Assembly (NCBI GenBank): GCA_023251775.1
Contig: JAHEYC010000013.1
Location: 4,494-56,174 of the forward strand
Source of the DNA: Sphingobacteriaceae bacterium
Lineage (GTDB): Bacteria; Bacteroidota; Bacteroidia; B-17B0; Aurantibacillaceae
Direction of reading: 5' to 3'
DNA length: 51,681 nucleotides
Positions 5,856-21,278 of the stretch are shown piece by piece. The notes under the pieces are model-generated. The model had not been told where the DNA came from, ran no database searches, and was given only the letters and a program-made list of their open reading frames with translations. Both the position numbers and the translations under genes were made by a program. Numbering within the stretch: position 1 is the first letter of the stretch; each line of letters begins with the position of its first letter.

Positions 5856-7937
5856 CTAGATCTTTATTCCCATTAATAAAACATCATCCACCTGTTCGAG
5901 TTCGCCTTTCCATGTATTAAATGCTTTCGAAAGTGCGGAGTATTGTTCTTGTGGCTGCAATGATTCCACCGAAAGAAGTAATTCTTCTAATTGTTTATGC
6001 TTATATTTTTTTCCGAGCGGTCCGCCAAACTGATCGGCAAAACCATCGGTAAATAAATAAAGACTGTCGCCCTTTTTCAACTCTAAATTAAAAAGTGTGA
6101 ACGGAACCATTTTTAGTCCTTTACCAACTGGCATTTTATCTACTTCTAATATTTTAAGAGTTTTCTCTCTTATCAAGATCGGTGCATTATTTGCTGCGGC
6201 GTACGTTACTATATTATTTTTTTTATTAAAACACATCAGTATCCCATCCATCCCGTCTTGCTGACCTTCATTTCCAATTCCTTCTATCAATCGCGTTCGT
6301 ACATAATCCAAAATTTTATTTGGTTCAAATATATTTCGCTCTTTTATAGCCTCACTTAAAAATCCAATGTTGAGTAAACTCATAAATGCGCCCGGCACAC
6401 CGTGCCCTGTACAATCACAAACGGCCATATAATAATGGTCTTTAGTTTCGGTTGTCCAATAAAAATCGCCTGCTACAATATCCTTTGGCAGATAAAGAAT
6501 AAAATTACTTGGGAAAAAAGAACTCACCACTTCCAGCTTTGGCAAAATGGCTTCTTGCAATCGTTTTGCATAAGTAATAGAATCAATAATAGAAGTTTGT
6601 TTTTCTTCCACCAAAGCTTTTTGCGATTCAATGATCTTGTGTGATCTACGTTTATCTCTGTAGGCAAAAGAAGCCATAACGAGCAAGATAAGAATAAGGA
6701 TCCCAACAATAAGAGCTGCTCGTGTTACAAGTTTTTGACTTTTGAGTTGCTCCTCCGCATAAATATCTTTTTTTAATTGCTCTTGCTTTAATTGTTCTTC
6801 TTTTTTATGGAAATCGTAGGTCATTTTTTCTTCCACTATTCGCTTGGTGCTTTCTTCGCTAAGCGTACTGTCTCTGTATGAGATATATGATTGGTGTGCA
6901 TTCAAAGCTTCTTTGAATAATTGTTTTTTTTCATATATCTGGGTCATTAATAAATAACAATCACTTAATTGGTGATTATCTCTACTTTGTTTTGCAAGAT
7001 CAATGACCTCCAATAATCTCTTTCTAGCATCATCGTATTGTTTGCGAAGAGTTAAGATCCGCGCCAAACCAAAATTGATCTCGGCAATATTGTTCATGTC
7101 TTTGGTCTCAACATATAGATCGAGGGCCAATTTCAGATTTGTTTCAGATTCCTTAAGATCATTTTTATATAAATTCATTTCAGCAACACTTTCATAGCAA
7201 GAAGCGATCCCTCTTTTATCACCGATCTCAAGATTTAATCCTAGTGCCTTCTTATAATATACTAAAGCGCTATCATACATGTGTTTTCTGCCATAAATTA
7301 TTCCAATATTATGGTTTGCATTGGCGATCCCGAACTTGTTGGTTTTTTTATCAAAAAGATCTCGGGCCATTATGTAATATTTGATGGCCTCTTTAAAATT
7401 TTCTTGCTGATAATATACATTGCCTATATTCAAATAGGAAGCTGCAATATCGCCCTTATTGTTTTCCTTTTCTCTTATCTCTAATCCTAACAGATAATAT
7501 TTAAGCGCTTCCGAAGATTTCCCTTGTTTTATGTAAATGATCCCCATATTATTATAGGCACCGGCAATTATTTTTTTTTCGTTATACTTCTCAGCTTCTT
7601 TTACCGCGTGATTCAAGTTTTCATAGGCCTCGGCATAATTGTTCATATTCATATTTGCAGTTCCTACGATGAAATACGAATAACTTATTCCTTTTTTAAA
7701 AGCGCTTTTATTATAAATTTCCAAAGCTTGTTTTGCGTACATAACAGCGCGCTCAGGATCATTCCTTCTGAATTCAAAAGCCAATTGATTTAATTTTCTT
7801 GCTTTTATTGTATCAATTTTTTCGCCGGAGATAACATTTAGTAGGGAATCCCGTGATGTTGGCTTTTGAGAAAACGCGGGAAGCGAAAAGAGGATCGCCA
7901 ATAAAGAAACTAAAAACCAACGCATGCTATTGCTCAT
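5856..7937 (-). CDS. Exported TPR protein with transmembrane helix and cytoplasmic SpoIIE-type phosphatase
   Basis: A 693-residue sensor-like protein. It has an N-terminal signal segment (RWFLVSLLAILFSLPAFS), about seven tetratricopeptide repeats between residues 40 and 360, and a charged coiled coil (365-400). A transmembrane helix (404-426) follows, then a second coiled linker. The PPM/SpoIIE-type serine phosphatase domain runs from ~465 to the end, with VAGDFYW (488-494) and the metal-site motif CDCTGHGVPGAFMS (507-520). Predicted topology is periplasmic TPR and cytosolic phosphatase. Family knowledge: such proteins act in partner-switching or signalling. The target is unknown. ATGs at 7937 and 7925 are both possible; the second gives a shorter signal n-region. 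It is directly upstream of acs, suggesting linked expression. Confidence 0.85.
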   Translation of the reverse strand: MSNSMRWFLVSLLAILFSLPAFSQKPTSRDSLLNVISGEKIDTIKARKLNQLAFEFRRNDPERAVMYAKQALEIYNKSAFKKGISYSYFIVGTANMNMNNYAEAYENLNHAVKEAEKYNEKKIIAGAYNNMGIIYIKQGKSSEALKYYLLGLEIREKENNKGDIAASYLNIGNVYYQQENFKEAIKYYIMARDLFDKKTNKFGIANANHNIGIIYGRKHMYDSALVYYKKALGLNLEIGDKRGIASCYESVAEMNLYKNDLKESETNLKLALDLYVETKDMNNIAEINFGLARILTLRKQYDDARKRLLEVIDLAKQSRDNHQLSDCYLLMTQIYEKKQLFKEALNAHQSYISYRDSTLSEESTKRIVEEKMTYDFHKKEEQLKQEQLKKDIYAEEQLKSQKLVTRAALIVGILILILLVMASFAYRDKRRSHKIIESQKALVEEKQTSIIDSITYAKRLQEAILPKLEVVSSFFPSNFILYLPKDIVAGDFYWTTETKDHYYMAVCDCTGHGVPGAFMSLLNIGFLSEAIKERNIFEPNKILDYVRTRLIEGIGNEGQQDGMDGILMCFNKKNNIVTYAAANNAPILIREKTLKILEVDKMPVGKGLKMVPFTLFNLELKKGDSLYLFTDGFADQFGGPLGKKYKHKQLEELLLSVESLQPQEQYSALSKAFNTWKGELEQVDDVLLMGIKI

Positions 7938-16464: not shown

Positions 16465-16842
16465 TTATTTTTTCTTGGAGAGGTATTTTGCATTATTTTC
16501 TGTAACGCGAAATTTTATCATATCAGTTATTAATTTTAGTGGCATAGGTTCATCAAGTGGAAATTGCACCGAGCCCTTTCCTTGTTTGTATTTGGAAAGT
16601 TGTTTCTCAAATTTTTTATGTCCGCTTGGTGTCGCATAAAATCCAATGTGTTTTTCATAACCCGCAAAATAAACTAAGGCCTTATCATTTAATTTATAAG
16701 CAGGCATTCCGTAACTAATACTCTCGGCACTTTTGGGCGCTGATGCTATTACTGCTTTACGAACTTGTTTTAATAATTTTTGAGTTTTCGGCGGAAAACT
16801 AAATATATAATCGTCAACATTTTTTATGGCAACAGCTCTCAT
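16465..16842 (-). CDS. DUF1801 family protein
   Basis: A 125-residue cytosolic protein of the DUF1801/YdhG fold. Family marks are the Y.......P.....L..VR start (DDYIFSFPPKTQKLLKQVRK), SISYGMPAYKLNDKALVYFAG, and GFYATPSGHKKFEKQLSKYK near the middle. Function is unknown; the domain resembles frataxin-like folds. It is the last gene of a leftward trio with a VOC protein (1 base away) and an SRPBCC protein. This set of families is commonly found together in soil and aquatic bacteria. Confidence 0.85.
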   Translation of the reverse strand: MRAVAIKNVDDYIFSFPPKTQKLLKQVRKAVIASAPKSAESISYGMPAYKLNDKALVYFAGYEKHIGFYATPSGHKKFEKQLSKYKQGKGSVQFPLDEPMPLKLITDMIKFRVTENNAKYLSKKK

Positions 16843-16843
16843 C

Positions 16844-17677
16844 TCAAGCGTTCTTTAATGTTTCAATATCAAATTTTTTCATTTTCATAAAGGCTTGTAT
16901 CACACGCGGACCTTTTACCGGATCGCTCATTAAACTTCCCAACATACTTGGCACAACTTGCCACGAAACACCAAATTTATCTTTGCACCATCCGCACATA
17001 CTTTCTTCTCCCTCTTTTGTAAAACCATTCCAATAATGATCTATCTCTTGTTGCGTATCGCATTCAATGGCCAATGAAACGCCTTCATCAAATGTGTATT
17101 TATGATCTCCCGGCCCATCCATAGCGATCATTAACTGATCGTTCAATTTAAATTCGGAGAACATCACCTTTCCTGCATTTGCATCTTCTTTAGGATAAAG
17201 GATCATATTTTCTATAGATGTATTCTTAAAAAGCGAACAATACAATTTTATAGCTTCCTCGGCTTTACCAAATTGTTTTTGGGTGAATAACATCGAAAGC
17301 GTGATCTTTTGCTTTGGTGTTTTGCTGTCAAATGAGATCTGCCAGGTAAACCCAAATTTATCTTGTAACCATCCGTAACGTTCGCTCCAGGGATATGCAT
17401 CAATGGGCATTAAAGCTTTTCCACCATCCATGAGTTTACCCCAAAGTTTATTGGTCTCTTCTAATGAAGGACTGATAACAAAGGCCGAAATAGACGGATT
17501 CATTTTAAACATTGGTCCACCGTTTAGGCACATGAATTTTTTCCCGCAAATTTCAGCAACACTTACTATTGGGTTGGAAGCTATTATTTTAGAATTATTA
17601 AATGCCGAACAATAAAACTCTGCAGCTTCTTTTGCATTTCCGTCAAACCATAAGCAAGGATAAATAGAATGTATCAT
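16844..17677 (-). CDS. Two-domain PhnB-like VOC protein
   Basis: A 277-residue protein of two fused vicinal-oxygen-chelate (glyoxalase-like) domains of the PhnB type. Domain 1 (~1-125) contains PCLWFDGNAKEAAEFYCSAF and the DKFGFTWQIS end motif. Domain 2 (~125-270) repeats the pattern (KAEEAIKLYCSLF, CGWCKDKFGVSWQVVPSML). Family proteins are often mislabelled 3-demethylubiquinone methyltransferase; no methyltransferase motif is present. The reaction is unknown. It lies 5 bases after the SRPBCC gene and 1 base before DUF1801. Confidence 0.88.
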   Translation of the reverse strand: MIHSIYPCLWFDGNAKEAAEFYCSAFNNSKIIASNPIVSVAEICGKKFMCLNGGPMFKMNPSISAFVISPSLEETNKLWGKLMDGGKALMPIDAYPWSERYGWLQDKFGFTWQISFDSKTPKQKITLSMLFTQKQFGKAEEAIKLYCSLFKNTSIENMILYPKEDANAGKVMFSEFKLNDQLMIAMDGPGDHKYTFDEGVSLAIECDTQQEIDHYWNGFTKEGEESMCGWCKDKFGVSWQVVPSMLGSLMSDPVKGPRVIQAFMKMKKFDIETLKNA

Positions 17678-17682
17678 ACTAA

Positions 17683-18099
17683 TTAATGTGTTTCGGCGTA
17701 ATTTTTAAAATTATTTAATATCGCTTGCCATCCGGCTTTTTGCATCTCCACAGGATTCATGCCTTCAGCTTCAAATGTTGTGGTGATATGTGTTTTTCCA
17801 TTGTCGTTCTTAAAACGCGTATCTGCTTTGCGACCATCGCCCATGGTATAAGCCAATTGTTTGTTTGGGTCTACAACATCAAATGTTCCGCCAAAATCAA
17901 ATCCAAAACTTCCGTCTTTCGCTTCCATGCGATACACAAATGTTCCGCCCACTTTAAGATCATGTTTCGCACTTGGCGAATGCCATTCGGGTGATGCGCT
18001 GTTCCATTTCACAATGTGTTCGGTGCCTGTCCAAAGTTTCCAAGTTTTTTCTACGGGCGTATTTATTGTAGCCTCTATAGTAATTTTTGTTTTTTCCAT
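17683..18099 (-). CDS. SRPBCC / AHSA1-like ligand-binding protein
   Basis: A 138-residue START-like protein related to the Aha1 C-terminal domain. Features are the N-terminal strand TKITIEATINTPVEKTWKLW, the W....HI..W motif, and the C-terminal helix GWQAILNNFKNYAE. Family members bind hydrophobic ligands in a helix-grip fold; no ligand is predictable. It is first of the trio with the VOC and DUF1801 genes. A 39-base gap separates it from the preceding membrane-protein gene, so it may belong to the same long transcript. Confidence 0.88.
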   Translation of the reverse strand: MEKTKITIEATINTPVEKTWKLWTGTEHIVKWNSASPEWHSPSAKHDLKVGGTFVYRMEAKDGSFGFDFGGTFDVVDPNKQLAYTMGDGRKADTRFKNDNGKTHITTTFEAEGMNPVEMQKAGWQAILNNFKNYAETH

Positions 18100-18138: not shown

Positions 18139-18546
18139 CTAATCATAAATTGGTCGGAATGCATTCCAAATAAAAATTGTGCTTAAATAGATCCATAAGA
18201 GTGAGAAAAGAATATGCAAAGTGGTCTCAAATTTCTTCCCTTTCCATAATTCCGGAGAATACACAAAGAATTGCACGAACAAACGGATGGTCCAAAATAT
18301 GCCAAGACCCAACGAAACCTTTTTTCCGAAAGTTGAGGCAGCAAGTTCTGTTGCACAGAAAAAACTTAATGCGCCCATTAAAAAAACAACAATGGCAATA
18401 AAAAAAGTGTGCACCACCATCATTTGTCGGTTCATTAAACTCAAGCTCTTTAGTTCTTGCGCCCAATTAAAACGTTTGGGAAAACCAATATGGATCAATG
18501 CCAACAGCATTAATAAAATTCCTATGATCCTAAAATGTAGTTCCAT
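18139..18546 (-). CDS. Small four-helix membrane protein
   Basis: A 135-residue integral membrane protein of unknown function with four predicted helices (ILLMLLALIHIGF; MVVHTFFIAIVVFLMGALSF; FGKKVSLGLGIFWTIRLFVQ; TTLHILFSLLWIYLSTIF). A conserved-looking His in helix 1 (LIHIGFPKRF) and FNWAQELKSLSLMNRQMM in the first loop are its most distinctive parts. It starts 17 bases inside the methyltransferase gene, so the two are translationally coupled. It is the last of five overlapping genes that begin with a UbiA-like prenyltransferase. Confidence 0.75.
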   Translation of the reverse strand: MELHFRIIGILLMLLALIHIGFPKRFNWAQELKSLSLMNRQMMVVHTFFIAIVVFLMGALSFFCATELAASTFGKKVSLGLGIFWTIRLFVQFFVYSPELWKGKKFETTLHILFSLLWIYLSTIFIWNAFRPIYD

Positions 18547-19282
18547 TTTTTTGTAAAGTAAATATATTAATAAAAGGTGTAAATTTTTCTTTTTTCAAAA
18601 CATTAAATCCCGACTCATTAAACGTTGTTTGCCACGATGAAAGCGATAAGAAATGAAAGAAGCCTACAGTATACGCCATAAAATTGGGAAGATCGCGAAG
18701 ATGTTCGGTGACGATCACCTGTCCCTTTGGTTTTAACACACGATAAAGTTCTTTAAAGAAAGTTATCCGCTCTTCATCATTTCTAATTTCATGTGCAGCA
18801 AAAATAACATAGATAGTATACACACTTTCTTTTTCTAAAGGAATTTTACTTGTGGTAATACTAATTGTCCCTTTATAGGGAGGGTAAGCGTTTCGTGCAC
18901 GCTTAATGGATGGTTCGGTATGCTTTAGCGGATCGTAAAAATCAAATACGATCAGACCTGAACTCGGATAACGACGTCTTAATAAAGTACTGGTCTCATC
19001 AAATCCCGCATTGATATTAAGTATTTTTTTGTTATTGTCTTCTTTGGAAAGCCAGTCTAATTTGTACAATCCCGAAAGATCATACACATAATAAGAAACG
19101 AGCAAAGAAATAAGAATAGGTAAAACAAAAATAATGGCTCCTAATAACACGTAGACTTGGTATGTTGTAAAGAAAGAATAAATTATAAGAAAAAGAACAA
19201 GGTCAAACGACACAAGATAAAACGGCCAATTAAAGCGAACAATATTGGTTACTCCCTGATAAGGTTTTCTTAAACTTTCCAT
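18530..19282 (-). CDS. Membrane-anchored SAM-dependent methyltransferase
   Basis: A 250-residue protein. Two transmembrane helices lie near residues 20-40 and 45-67. They are followed by a class I methyltransferase domain with motif I as KILNINAGFDETS (86-98), an acidic motif II VFDFYDP (112-118), AAHEIRNDEE (162-171) and the post-motif III pattern YRVLKPKGQVIVTEHLRD. Motif I is a degenerate form of the usual E/DxGxGxG (NAGFDE), so SAM binding is likely but not certain. The membrane anchor suggests a lipid or isoprenoid substrate. It overlaps the DUF2071 gene by 13 bases and the next gene by 17. Confidence 0.8.
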   Translation of the reverse strand: MESLRKPYQGVTNIVRFNWPFYLVSFDLVLFLIIYSFFTTYQVYVLLGAIIFVLPILISLLVSYYVYDLSGLYKLDWLSKEDNNKKILNINAGFDETSTLLRRRYPSSGLIVFDFYDPLKHTEPSIKRARNAYPPYKGTISITTSKIPLEKESVYTIYVIFAAHEIRNDEERITFFKELYRVLKPKGQVIVTEHLRDLPNFMAYTVGFFHFLSLSSWQTTFNESGFNVLKKEKFTPFINIFTLQKNGTTF

Positions 19283-20007
19283 TTTTCTATTCTCCCTTTT
19301 TTCCAGTAGTACGGAATATTATTAATGATAAATGCATTTGCTAATATAGCATCCGATAAATTCAATGTATCCAAAAAAGCTACTTTGTAATTAGTTATTT
19401 GAATTGGTTTGGGATCCCAATCTTCGCGCACGCCTTCAATGATCAATACTTCTTTGGTTTTTTTATTATACGTAAATGTAAATGGTAAAGGACCGGCATA
19501 TCTCCTCGCTTCTTTCCAATCGGCAAAAGGAGAGCCTTTTGGTAGAGGAACATTTTCTGCATGTGTTTCTAAATGAATTTCAAGCCCGGAATTTTTGGAA
19601 CGGATGATGGTTTCATTTTCTGTAGTTGTTTTTTCAATATCGGTTGTTGTATAATTATAATGTGTAAATATATTCCCGAAAAAACTCATTTGTTTTTTAT
19701 CGGTCTCCGACTTTAAAATATACAAACCGCGTAAACGTTTTCCGGCATTGGTATGGTATTTTACAAATACGCGATAACCGGTAAGAAAAAAATCATTACC
19801 CATGAATTTCGGGAAACCTTTAGGACGCAATCCCTTTGTTTGAACCATGGCAACGGCAACAAATGCCCATTTATCTTGAAATGTATCTAATTCCAAACAC
19901 TCCGGGATCAAAGTTTGCAATTTTTCTTTGGGAACCGCAAAAGTCAATACGATCGAACTGTCAAAAAATGCTTCTACGGCAAAGGGATGATCTTTTAAAC
20001 TAAACAT
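19270..20007 (-). CDS. DUF2071 family protein (acetoacetate-decarboxylase-like fold)
   Basis: A 245-residue cytosolic protein of the DUF2071/YqjF family. It is recognised by the strand pattern HPFAVEAFFDSSIVLTFAVP, the VPKEKLQTLIPECLELD stretch, the central GYRVFVKYHTNAGKRLRGLY and the FADWKEARRYAGPLPFTF region. Its fold is related to acetoacetate decarboxylase. ATG 20007 is chosen over 20034 because AAAGGAGG stands at the right distance before it, an unusually strong Shine-Dalgarno for this genome. It also gives an 8-base overlap with the DoxX-like gene like the others in the cluster. Function is unknown. Confidence 0.85.
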   Translation of the reverse strand: MFSLKDHPFAVEAFFDSSIVLTFAVPKEKLQTLIPECLELDTFQDKWAFVAVAMVQTKGLRPKGFPKFMGNDFFLTGYRVFVKYHTNAGKRLRGLYILKSETDKKQMSFFGNIFTHYNYTTTDIEKTTTENETIIRSKNSGLEIHLETHAENVPLPKGSPFADWKEARRYAGPLPFTFTYNKKTKEVLIIEGVREDWDPKPIQITNYKVAFLDTLNLSDAILANAFIINNIPYYWKKGRIEKWKV

Positions 20008-20422
20008 GTTTTTCCTCCTTTGCTTTTTTGCCAATATAAAAATGATCTAGAGCGATGATCACAATAAATAGGAATGCGAATAATGAATTAAACTTTCCCC
20101 ACAATAAAAGCTCGGGGACTAAAATATATTCCAAGGTATTCATGATAGCTATGATCCCAATTTGCATTAGCCCATTTAAACGAGACCATAAATTCGTGAG
20201 GATCCAAATTCCCATGCAAACTTCCGAAATTCCAATAAGTATGGTGAATAACCTCGCATGCTCTTCGCCCAAAATAGTTCCCACGATTAATTTATGACGC
20301 GGAACAAGATCAAGCACTTTACATAATAGTCCGTTCGCAAACCATATAAGGGCAAAACAATATCTTAACGTAATATGAAGAGTTTTGAAGATGTGATCGT
20401 AATTGTACTTAAAGTTACGCAA
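20000..20422 (-). CDS. DoxX-like membrane protein
   Basis: A 140-residue membrane protein with four predicted helices, resembling DoxX-like proteins: LRYCFALIWFANGLLCKVLD in helix 1, FTILIGISEVCMGIWILTNL in helix 2, then two more helices, and a basic cytosolic tail. Family knowledge: DoxX relatives are quinone-linked or of unknown function. The gene overlaps the UbiA-like gene by 8 bases upstream and the DUF2071 gene by 8 downstream, so all three are probably made together. Confidence 0.75.
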   Translation of the reverse strand: MRNFKYNYDHIFKTLHITLRYCFALIWFANGLLCKVLDLVPRHKLIVGTILGEEHARLFTILIGISEVCMGIWILTNLWSRLNGLMQIGIIAIMNTLEYILVPELLLWGKFNSLFAFLFIVIIALDHFYIGKKAKEEKHV

Positions 20423-21278
20423 AGTATTTCAGGAAAGAAAAACCAATAACTAAAAGTCCTTGCAAAAGTATAGTGCCGTCTAATATAGCATAATGATACA
20501 GCGTTGATCTTTTAGCTCTATCCCATTTTAGAAATACTAAAGTACTTATGGAGGAAACTACCATGGCCATCATCAAAAAAAATTGATCAAGTGCGCTATA
20601 ATGAAGAACTGAGATCAAAAGAAAAAGCAGAATGGAGCCGTAAGCAATTACCATTGATCTTTTTTCTCCAAATAACAAGGGAATTGTTTTTGTATTTGCT
20701 GTGCGATCGGCTTCCATATCTCTTATATCAAAAGGAATTGTGATCGCAAAAATAAACACAAAACGCTCAATGAGCATTAAGGAAATATGCGTCGTACCAA
20801 ATTCTTGTCCGCTTTGAATTAATGGTAACAAAACCGTGGTGGCCGACCAAGTAAACGAAATGATAAAGATCTTGACATAAGGAATTTCGCGCAATCGGAA
20901 AATACTTTTTTTAGTTCCGTACACCGGAATAGAGTAGAGGAGTGTTAAAGCGGCAATGGGAGCAAGAGTGATAAGCACTTGTTTTTTTGCCATAAAAGCA
21001 GTAACAATAAAACCTGCGATCGATAAAATAACGAGCGCATAAAAAGCGATGAGATTATCTTTTACCCATTTATGTTTATGAGAATTTAATGCGGCTTTAT
21101 TTGTAAGTACAGTTATAAACCTATGAATATTATATTCACAAAGTGTAGCAAAGAAAATAAGAAATAGATACGGATGCCATTGGGGTTCCATGCCCAATTG
21201 TATCTGTGTTTCGACGGTAAACAAAACAGCAGCAAGGGAAATGTAAATATTAGAATTTATAAGGGCTTTTACGATCAT
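20415..21278 (-). CDS. UbiA-like prenyltransferase, divergent first motif
   Basis: A 287-residue membrane protein with about nine helices of the UbiA superfamily, which transfer isoprenoid chains to aromatic or lipid acceptors. The second Asp motif is intact as DIRDMEAD (184-191). The R.IP..K segment of the family is seen as LREIPYVKIF (129-138). The first motif, normally NDxxD, is replaced by EYNIHRF (48-54), so metal and pyrophosphate binding must differ or be reduced. It leads a set of five overlapping genes. It is 44 bases downstream of a small exported protein, so a longer transcript from 22698 is possible. Confidence 0.8.
   Translation of the reverse strand: MIVKALINSNIYISLAAVLFTVETQIQLGMEPQWHPYLFLIFFATLCEYNIHRFITVLTNKAALNSHKHKWVKDNLIAFYALVILSIAGFIVTAFMAKKQVLITLAPIAALTLLYSIPVYGTKKSIFRLREIPYVKIFIISFTWSATTVLLPLIQSGQEFGTTHISLMLIERFVFIFAITIPFDIRDMEADRTANTKTIPLLFGEKRSMVIAYGSILLFLLISVLHYSALDQFFLMMAMVVSSISTLVFLKWDRAKRSTLYHYAILDGTILLQGLLVIGFSFLKYFA

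Follow-up and report, generated by a model that had tools for sequence, protein, structure and literature searches.

The betaine-lipid pathway BtaA/BtaB includes a lipid methyltransferase, BtaB, and further lipid methyltransferases are of the UbiE/MenG type; in S-adenosylmethionine (SAM)-dependent methyltransferases, the glycine-rich motif I reads GxGxG. A putative UbiE-like methyltransferase with an N-terminal membrane anchor is encoded in a 51,681-nucleotide stretch of DNA from a Sphingobacteriaceae bacterium (assembly GCA_023251775.1, contig JAHEYC010000013.1, positions 4,494 to 56,174), to which we refer, at its full length, as the window. It is the third gene of a cassette that starts with a gene for a DoxX-like membrane protein, followed by one for a DUF2071 protein, and ends with a gene for a four-transmembrane (4-TM) protein. 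Here we show that these four genes form one unit, scattered over genomes of two phyla, and that prenyl transfer, the step offered by a UbiA-family gene lying in front of them in the window, is no part of that conserved unit.

The cassette methyltransferase resembles the UbiE/MenG type through weak UbiE, BioC and Methyltransf_11 matches, while differing in its membrane anchor, its degenerate motif I (NAGFDE in the window) and its linkage to the cassette. Likeness to the BtaA/BtaB pathway comes from a DUF3419 (BtaA family) gene within one Streptomyces cassette; however, DUF3419 lies outside the cassette core and has no match in 33 of 42 Bacteroidota cassette genomes. By Pfam score, the second gene is a member of the DUF2071/YqjF family (PF09844, acetoacetate decarboxylase (ADC)-like clan), within which the cassette copies stand apart as a tight subfamily with four fixed arginines. 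We found no tested function for the DUF2071 family in the literature, and the available part of one source reports no conservation of the ADC Schiff-base lysine across PF09844 (PMC4520260). Mycobacterial DoxX is described, in the portion available of a further source, as the partner of a thiosulfate sulfurtransferase in a complex that counters agents disturbing thiol homeostasis (PMC8638967). From that portion, a DoxX-type membrane protein is common to both systems, whereas the cassette is without a sulfurtransferase and its own protein belongs to the DoxX_3 family. Judged by family searches, the parts of the cassette belong to known families except the 4-TM protein, and our literature search, whose coverage left out most subscription journals, found no published description of the cassette.

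Results

Four genes form a conserved unit

We compared 53 loci besides the window, all with the methyltransferase gene, comprising 50 from Bacteroidota and three Streptomyces plasmid records. The DoxX-like, DUF2071, methyltransferase and 4-TM genes follow each other in the same order and on the same strand in 46 of the 50 Bacteroidota loci (38/41 plus 8/9). The incomplete loci are L122, whose contig starts 183 bases ahead of DUF2071; L155, without DoxX; L148 (1236-2376), with the methyltransferase and 4-TM genes only; and L173 (7318-8760), without DoxX and with a DUF2071 fragment beside the methyltransferase and 4-TM genes. L148 and L173 look decayed or partial.

Across 60 genomes (that of the window and its relatives), strong DUF2071 matches (E < 1e-90) and strong methyltransferase matches occur in the identical 10, with the genes adjacent; the same set holds three more weak DUF2071 matches (E 1.3e-6 to 8.5e-4) and one more weak methyltransferase match (3.1e-4). 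The methyltransferase profile matches 13 of 395 genomes sampled across the phylum, and the 4-TM profile matches 19, namely the same 13 strongly and six distantly (6e-12 to 6e-15), a co-occurrence with a hypergeometric value of 1.3e-24, uncorrected for relatedness. By tblastn, the other three cassette genes were not found in the fetched loci of the six distant 4-TM relatives. A sample of 395 genomes from the class contains the cassette, as represented by the methyltransferase, in 33, and one genome family contains it in 10 of 147. The four proteins show correlated pairwise distances (r 0.39-0.65, with the Streptomyces copies and L155 left out), a figure to which shared ancestry contributes. The poorly understood DoxX_3 and DUF2071 proteins and a 4-TM protein without a Pfam family thereby become one testable unit, and one DUF2071 subfamily gains a firm partner set.

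The reading frames are also tightly packed. Overlaps of 8, 8, 13 and 17 bases had been listed along the five window genes, and recomputing them gave identical values. With gene starts picked by script, the DUF2071 and methyltransferase frames overlap in 42 of 43 loci (by 13 bases in 15, 10 in 14 and 4 in 10), and the methyltransferase and 4-TM frames in 33 of 44, the window's 17-base overlap recurring in 25. DoxX and DUF2071 overlap in 14 of 39 loci, counting one fusion, and in 35 they either overlap or are separated by fewer than 30 bases. The fusion, in L142 (7272-8414), joins both Pfam domains in a single in-frame open reading frame of 380 amino acids, although an assembly error is possible there. 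Because the same junction overlaps recur across loci, those of the window exceed chance.

Conserved residues and family tests

Invariant polar residues are present in all four cassette proteins. The 4-TM protein keeps His19, His46, His111, Arg88 and Trp101 in 45 of 45 copies; since its invariant residues fall at helix ends, given four membrane segments, the three histidines and the arginine would face one side of the membrane and may form an active site. The six distant relatives (L127-L132) share His19, Trp28, Arg88 and Gln92 and are without His46, His111 and the WxGK segment. The methyltransferase retains Gly93, Glu96 and Asp114 (45 of 45), and the DUF2071 protein retains Arg61, Arg79, Arg168 and Arg194 (44 of 44).

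Comparison of the methyltransferase with NCBIfam gave weak matches including UbiE/MenG, MpqE and BioC, all far below the curated cut-offs, and the plain DoxX model of Pfam stays below its cut-off for the DoxX_3 protein of the window. No Pfam family was above cut-off for the 4-TM protein in the window copy and five further cassette copies scanned. Solved structures gave no significant match for the DUF2071 or 4-TM protein, and two weak partial ones for the methyltransferase. A Foldseek search with a single-sequence structure model of the 4-TM protein gave no match reaching E 0.001; that of the DUF2071 protein (predicted local distance difference test, pLDDT, 40) was not used. A role in anti-phage defence was rejected, as the only PADLOC match at E 0.01 among the five window proteins was a 14-bit one of DUF2071 to Cas9, which is not credible.

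The UbiA gene is at most an optional neighbour

The initial annotation had taken five overlapping genes, UbiA included, as coupled genes whose products probably act together. The four-gene unit is real, but UbiA lies outside it: the stretches fetched for the 53 other cassette loci contain no UbiA gene, and in front of the unit, where the window has UbiA, the other genomes read have some other gene. Conversely, none of 80 UbiA loci (genome contigs) has any of the four cassette genes in its stretch, many of these stretches ending at contig ends, and the surroundings differ among the 46 UbiA loci compared. Outside the genus of the window, a close UbiA relative at E 1e-45 occurs in 3 of 44 cassette genomes, always on a contig other than that of the cassette, and in 0 of 36 others. 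With 0/53 cassette loci, 0/80 UbiA loci and 41/44 cassette genomes without a close UbiA relative, a five-gene unit including UbiA was rejected. Thus, the five families rarely occur together, which does not hold for the four without UbiA.

Within the genus, a close UbiA (> 50% identity) is found in 8 of 37 genomes, and one further genome has a 37% match. Close UbiA genes occur in six of seven cassette genomes versus two of 30 without the cassette (three of 30 counting the 37% match), giving a Fisher value of 8e-5, uncorrected for relatedness. Only in the window do UbiA and cassette share a contig, and five of the six UbiA-bearing cassette genomes of the genus have cassettes of one clade in the cassette tree. 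Because the contigs are separate, no UbiA gene stands in the fetched stretches of the 53 other loci and the within-genus association comes largely from one clade, UbiA is a local neighbour and at most an optional partner.

A canonical first Asp-rich motif is expected in UbiA prenyltransferases, and the window protein was said to have lost it. The loss is real (EYNIHR in the window), but it is a family-wide trait: YNxHR-type residues occupy the first-motif position in 37 of 39 close members, the window included, and a loose canonical pattern is found somewhere in the sequence of one of the 39. The second Asp motif, DxxDxxxD, is kept in all 39 close and all 42 distant members.

Probable spread between bacteria

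A tblastn search of 72,556 plasmid records places methyltransferase matches (>= 80% of length) and DUF2071 matches on the same six Streptomyces records, and a 4-TM search with a Streptomyces copy as query finds those same six. A seventh methyltransferase match, in Aulosira (E 8e-4), is partial. The layout was read in three of the six records. L133 and L135 carry an ArsR-type regulator, DUF2071, the methyltransferase and a hypothetical protein, and the regulator overlaps DUF2071 in L133. L134 carries a DoxX-like gene, a BtaA family (DUF3419) gene, DUF2071, the methyltransferase and a hypothetical protein, the last being a homologue of the 4-TM protein (34% identity, E 4e-28, single comparison).

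In a concatenated tree with the Streptomyces rows only as root, ten Bacteroidota genome families are represented by more than one cassette, and eight of these families, that of the window included, are not monophyletic, the support of the enclosing nodes ranging from 0.23 to 0.90. Because the cassette occurs on Streptomyces plasmids, shows a DoxX-DUF2071 fusion in one locus and has a tree that cuts across genome families, it probably moves horizontally. Among viral contigs, 86 pattern matches to the methyltransferase included no relative.

Discussion

We propose, at a probability of about 40%, that the cassette, which probably spreads horizontally, encodes one putative set of inner-membrane enzymes using SAM to modify a lipophilic substrate. 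The anchored methyltransferase would act with SAM on a membrane-soluble substrate, such as a lipid or quinone-like molecule, while the ADC-fold DUF2071 protein may bind or convert its polar, probably acidic, end and dock on DoxX. Catalysis or redox chemistry in the membrane would fall to DoxX and the 4-TM protein, the three invariant histidines and the arginine of the latter lying near one membrane face. The initial annotation had suggested a modified quinone- or lipid-like product, a proposal that fits the parts, but prenyl transfer falls outside the conserved unit and the pathway stays conjectural.

Genes adjoining the cassette in a few lineages give suggestive support for a lipid or quinone substrate, and unrelated genes adjoin it in others. 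A BtaA-like gene lies inside the L134 cassette, between DoxX and DUF2071. L155 has, in place of DoxX, an FA_hydroxylase gene (5921-6772) whose nearest NCBIfam model is the ornithine-lipid hydroxylase OlsE, below its cut-off. A gene of the sphingolipid delta-4-desaturase family overlaps DoxX by 4 bases in L121, a CMAS-like methyltransferase stands in front of the cassette in L153, an isochorismate synthase gene lies closely upstream of it in L115, and the partial cassette of L148 is followed after 50 bases by a gene of the lipid A acyltransferase family. A DUF3419 match occurs in 9 of 42 cassette genomes versus 1 of 38 others (Fisher 0.016, uncorrected for relatedness, with 24 of the 38 controls from the genus of the window), and none was found in the window's own genome.

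Several observations weigh against an enzyme set for a lipophilic substrate. Because motif I is degenerate, methyl transfer is itself unproven, and the structure model of the 4-TM protein (pLDDT 67, predicted template modelling score 0.40) is too weak to help. The lipid-type neighbours were picked out after the fact, from a scan of 20 of the immediate neighbours plus a few more, and most of the scanned ones are non-lipid: carbonic anhydrase, peptidase C92, a WCX/HTH regulator, Bro-N, UPRTase, glyoxalase, CHAP, YjgF, a nuclease, a beta-lactamase fold and TauE, among others. The delta-4 desaturase was rejected as a steady partner, not being found in nine other loci of the same genome family, and the betaine-lipid pathway was rejected as a core requirement because most Bacteroidota cassette genomes, as given above, are without a DUF3419 match. 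ArsR, GbsR/MarR and WCX/HTH regulators nearby also fit a role in stress or detoxification.

Such a role is unlikely, though it is the best of the alternatives: the cassette would be a protective or detoxifying membrane system. Its DoxX and 4-TM proteins would assemble into an oxidoreductase-like complex, with the methyltransferase capping either a xenobiotic or some damaged compound of the thiol or metalloid type. It would suit a patchy, apparently horizontally spread unit that is plasmid-borne in Streptomyces, the ArsR-type regulator overlapping DUF2071 in L133, and the DCC1-like thiol oxidoreductase and GbsR/MarR-like regulator that accompany the cassette in L151 and L153. The mycobacterial DoxX complex, as far as the available text of PMC8638967 describes it, points the same way. 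However, the regulators vary by locus in the part of the neighbours scanned, the core is without a thiol enzyme, and none of the five proteins of the window has a credible PADLOC match. A detoxifying system, if true, would explain an accessory trait of 13/395 genomes in the phylum sample and 33/395 in the class sample.

We consider it more doubtful that the cassette is a menaquinone-modifying set, with DoxX binding the quinone as partner of a UbiE-like enzyme that adds a methyl group to the quinone ring or to a derivative. UbiE/MenG and MpqE do appear among the weak family matches of the methyltransferase, an isochorismate synthase gene lies 3 bases upstream of the cassette in L115, and UbiA is present in the window. 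Yet those NCBIfam matches are all far below cut-off, L115 is the only locus adjoined by a menaquinone-type gene among the scanned neighbours, and the cassette is confined to a small minority of the sampled genomes. An isoprenoid pathway of five genes, in which UbiA supplies the prenyl-transfer step, is highly improbable. The 8-base UbiA/DoxX overlap in the window and the co-occurrence of UbiA and cassette within and outside the genus speak for it; against it are the within-genus association resting largely on one clade, the 0/53 cassette loci and 0/80 UbiA loci given above, and the 41/44 cassette genomes outside the genus without a close UbiA at E 1e-45.

Returning to the modification of a lipophilic substrate with SAM, an extended version is that the cassette makes a membrane lipid or quinone with a modification of a new class through a compact complex, with the 4-TM protein as a new three-histidine membrane enzyme, and that horizontal transfer accounts for its presence in both Bacteroidota and actinobacterial linear plasmids. 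We regard this version as unlikely in full; if the modified lipid or quinone product were true, it would represent new, transferable membrane chemistry.

Genes of the window and their surroundings

The five window genes lie in a row on the minus strand (21278-18139). The labels UbiA, DoxX-like, DUF2071 and methyltransferase, as first assigned, each exceed the curated Pfam cut-off, and the four-helix label agrees with hydropathy for the fifth product. The methyltransferase also exceeds the Pfam cut-off for Ubie_methyltran (22.7 bits against 20.1, E 7.1e-5), and its N-terminal hydrophobic stretch covers residues 17-70. Hydropathy finds no hydrophobic segments in the DUF2071 protein, for whose gene an alternative longer TTG frame begins at 20034.

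Table 1. The UbiA-family gene and the four cassette genes in the window.
Feature	Coordinates	Strand	Length and start	Family evidence
UbiA-family gene	20415-21278	-	287 aa	Pfam UbiA 48 bits (cut-off 34.2), E 1.3e-12
DoxX-like (DoxX_3) membrane protein	20000-20422	-	140 aa, TTG start	Pfam DoxX_3 54.6 bits (cut-off 25), E 1.8e-14
DUF2071 protein (ADC-like fold clan), soluble	19270-20007	-	245 aa, ATG start	Pfam 63.1 bits (cut-off 27), E 3.7e-17
UbiE-like methyltransferase, N-terminal membrane anchor	18530-19282	-	250 aa	Methyltransf_11 26.6 bits (cut-off 21.2), E 9.7e-6
Four-TM (4-TM) membrane protein	18139-18546	-	135 aa	Four hydrophobic segments by hydropathy

Across 44 loci and the window, no flanking gene is common to four or more genome families, and the flanks differ. 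An extended operon recurs in a single case, in two genera of one family (L153, 5992-13234; L151, 5396-10587), and comprises a GbsR/MarR-like regulator, the cassette, a DCC1-like thiol oxidoreductase, a second DUF2071 and an SDR-like protein; L153 has in addition the CMAS-like methyltransferase and a third DUF2071. Upstream of the cassette in L175 (5962-7346), a 142-aa membrane protein that resembles the 4-TM family by eye is followed by a 321-aa protein, and neither matches NCBIfam at 0.001. Downstream of the cassette in the window (16465-18099), a same-strand group consists of AHSA1-like, PhnB-like and DUF1801-like genes. Absent from the remaining loci compared, DUF1801-like genes stand near five of the other cassettes of the same genus, and a PhnB-like gene near one.

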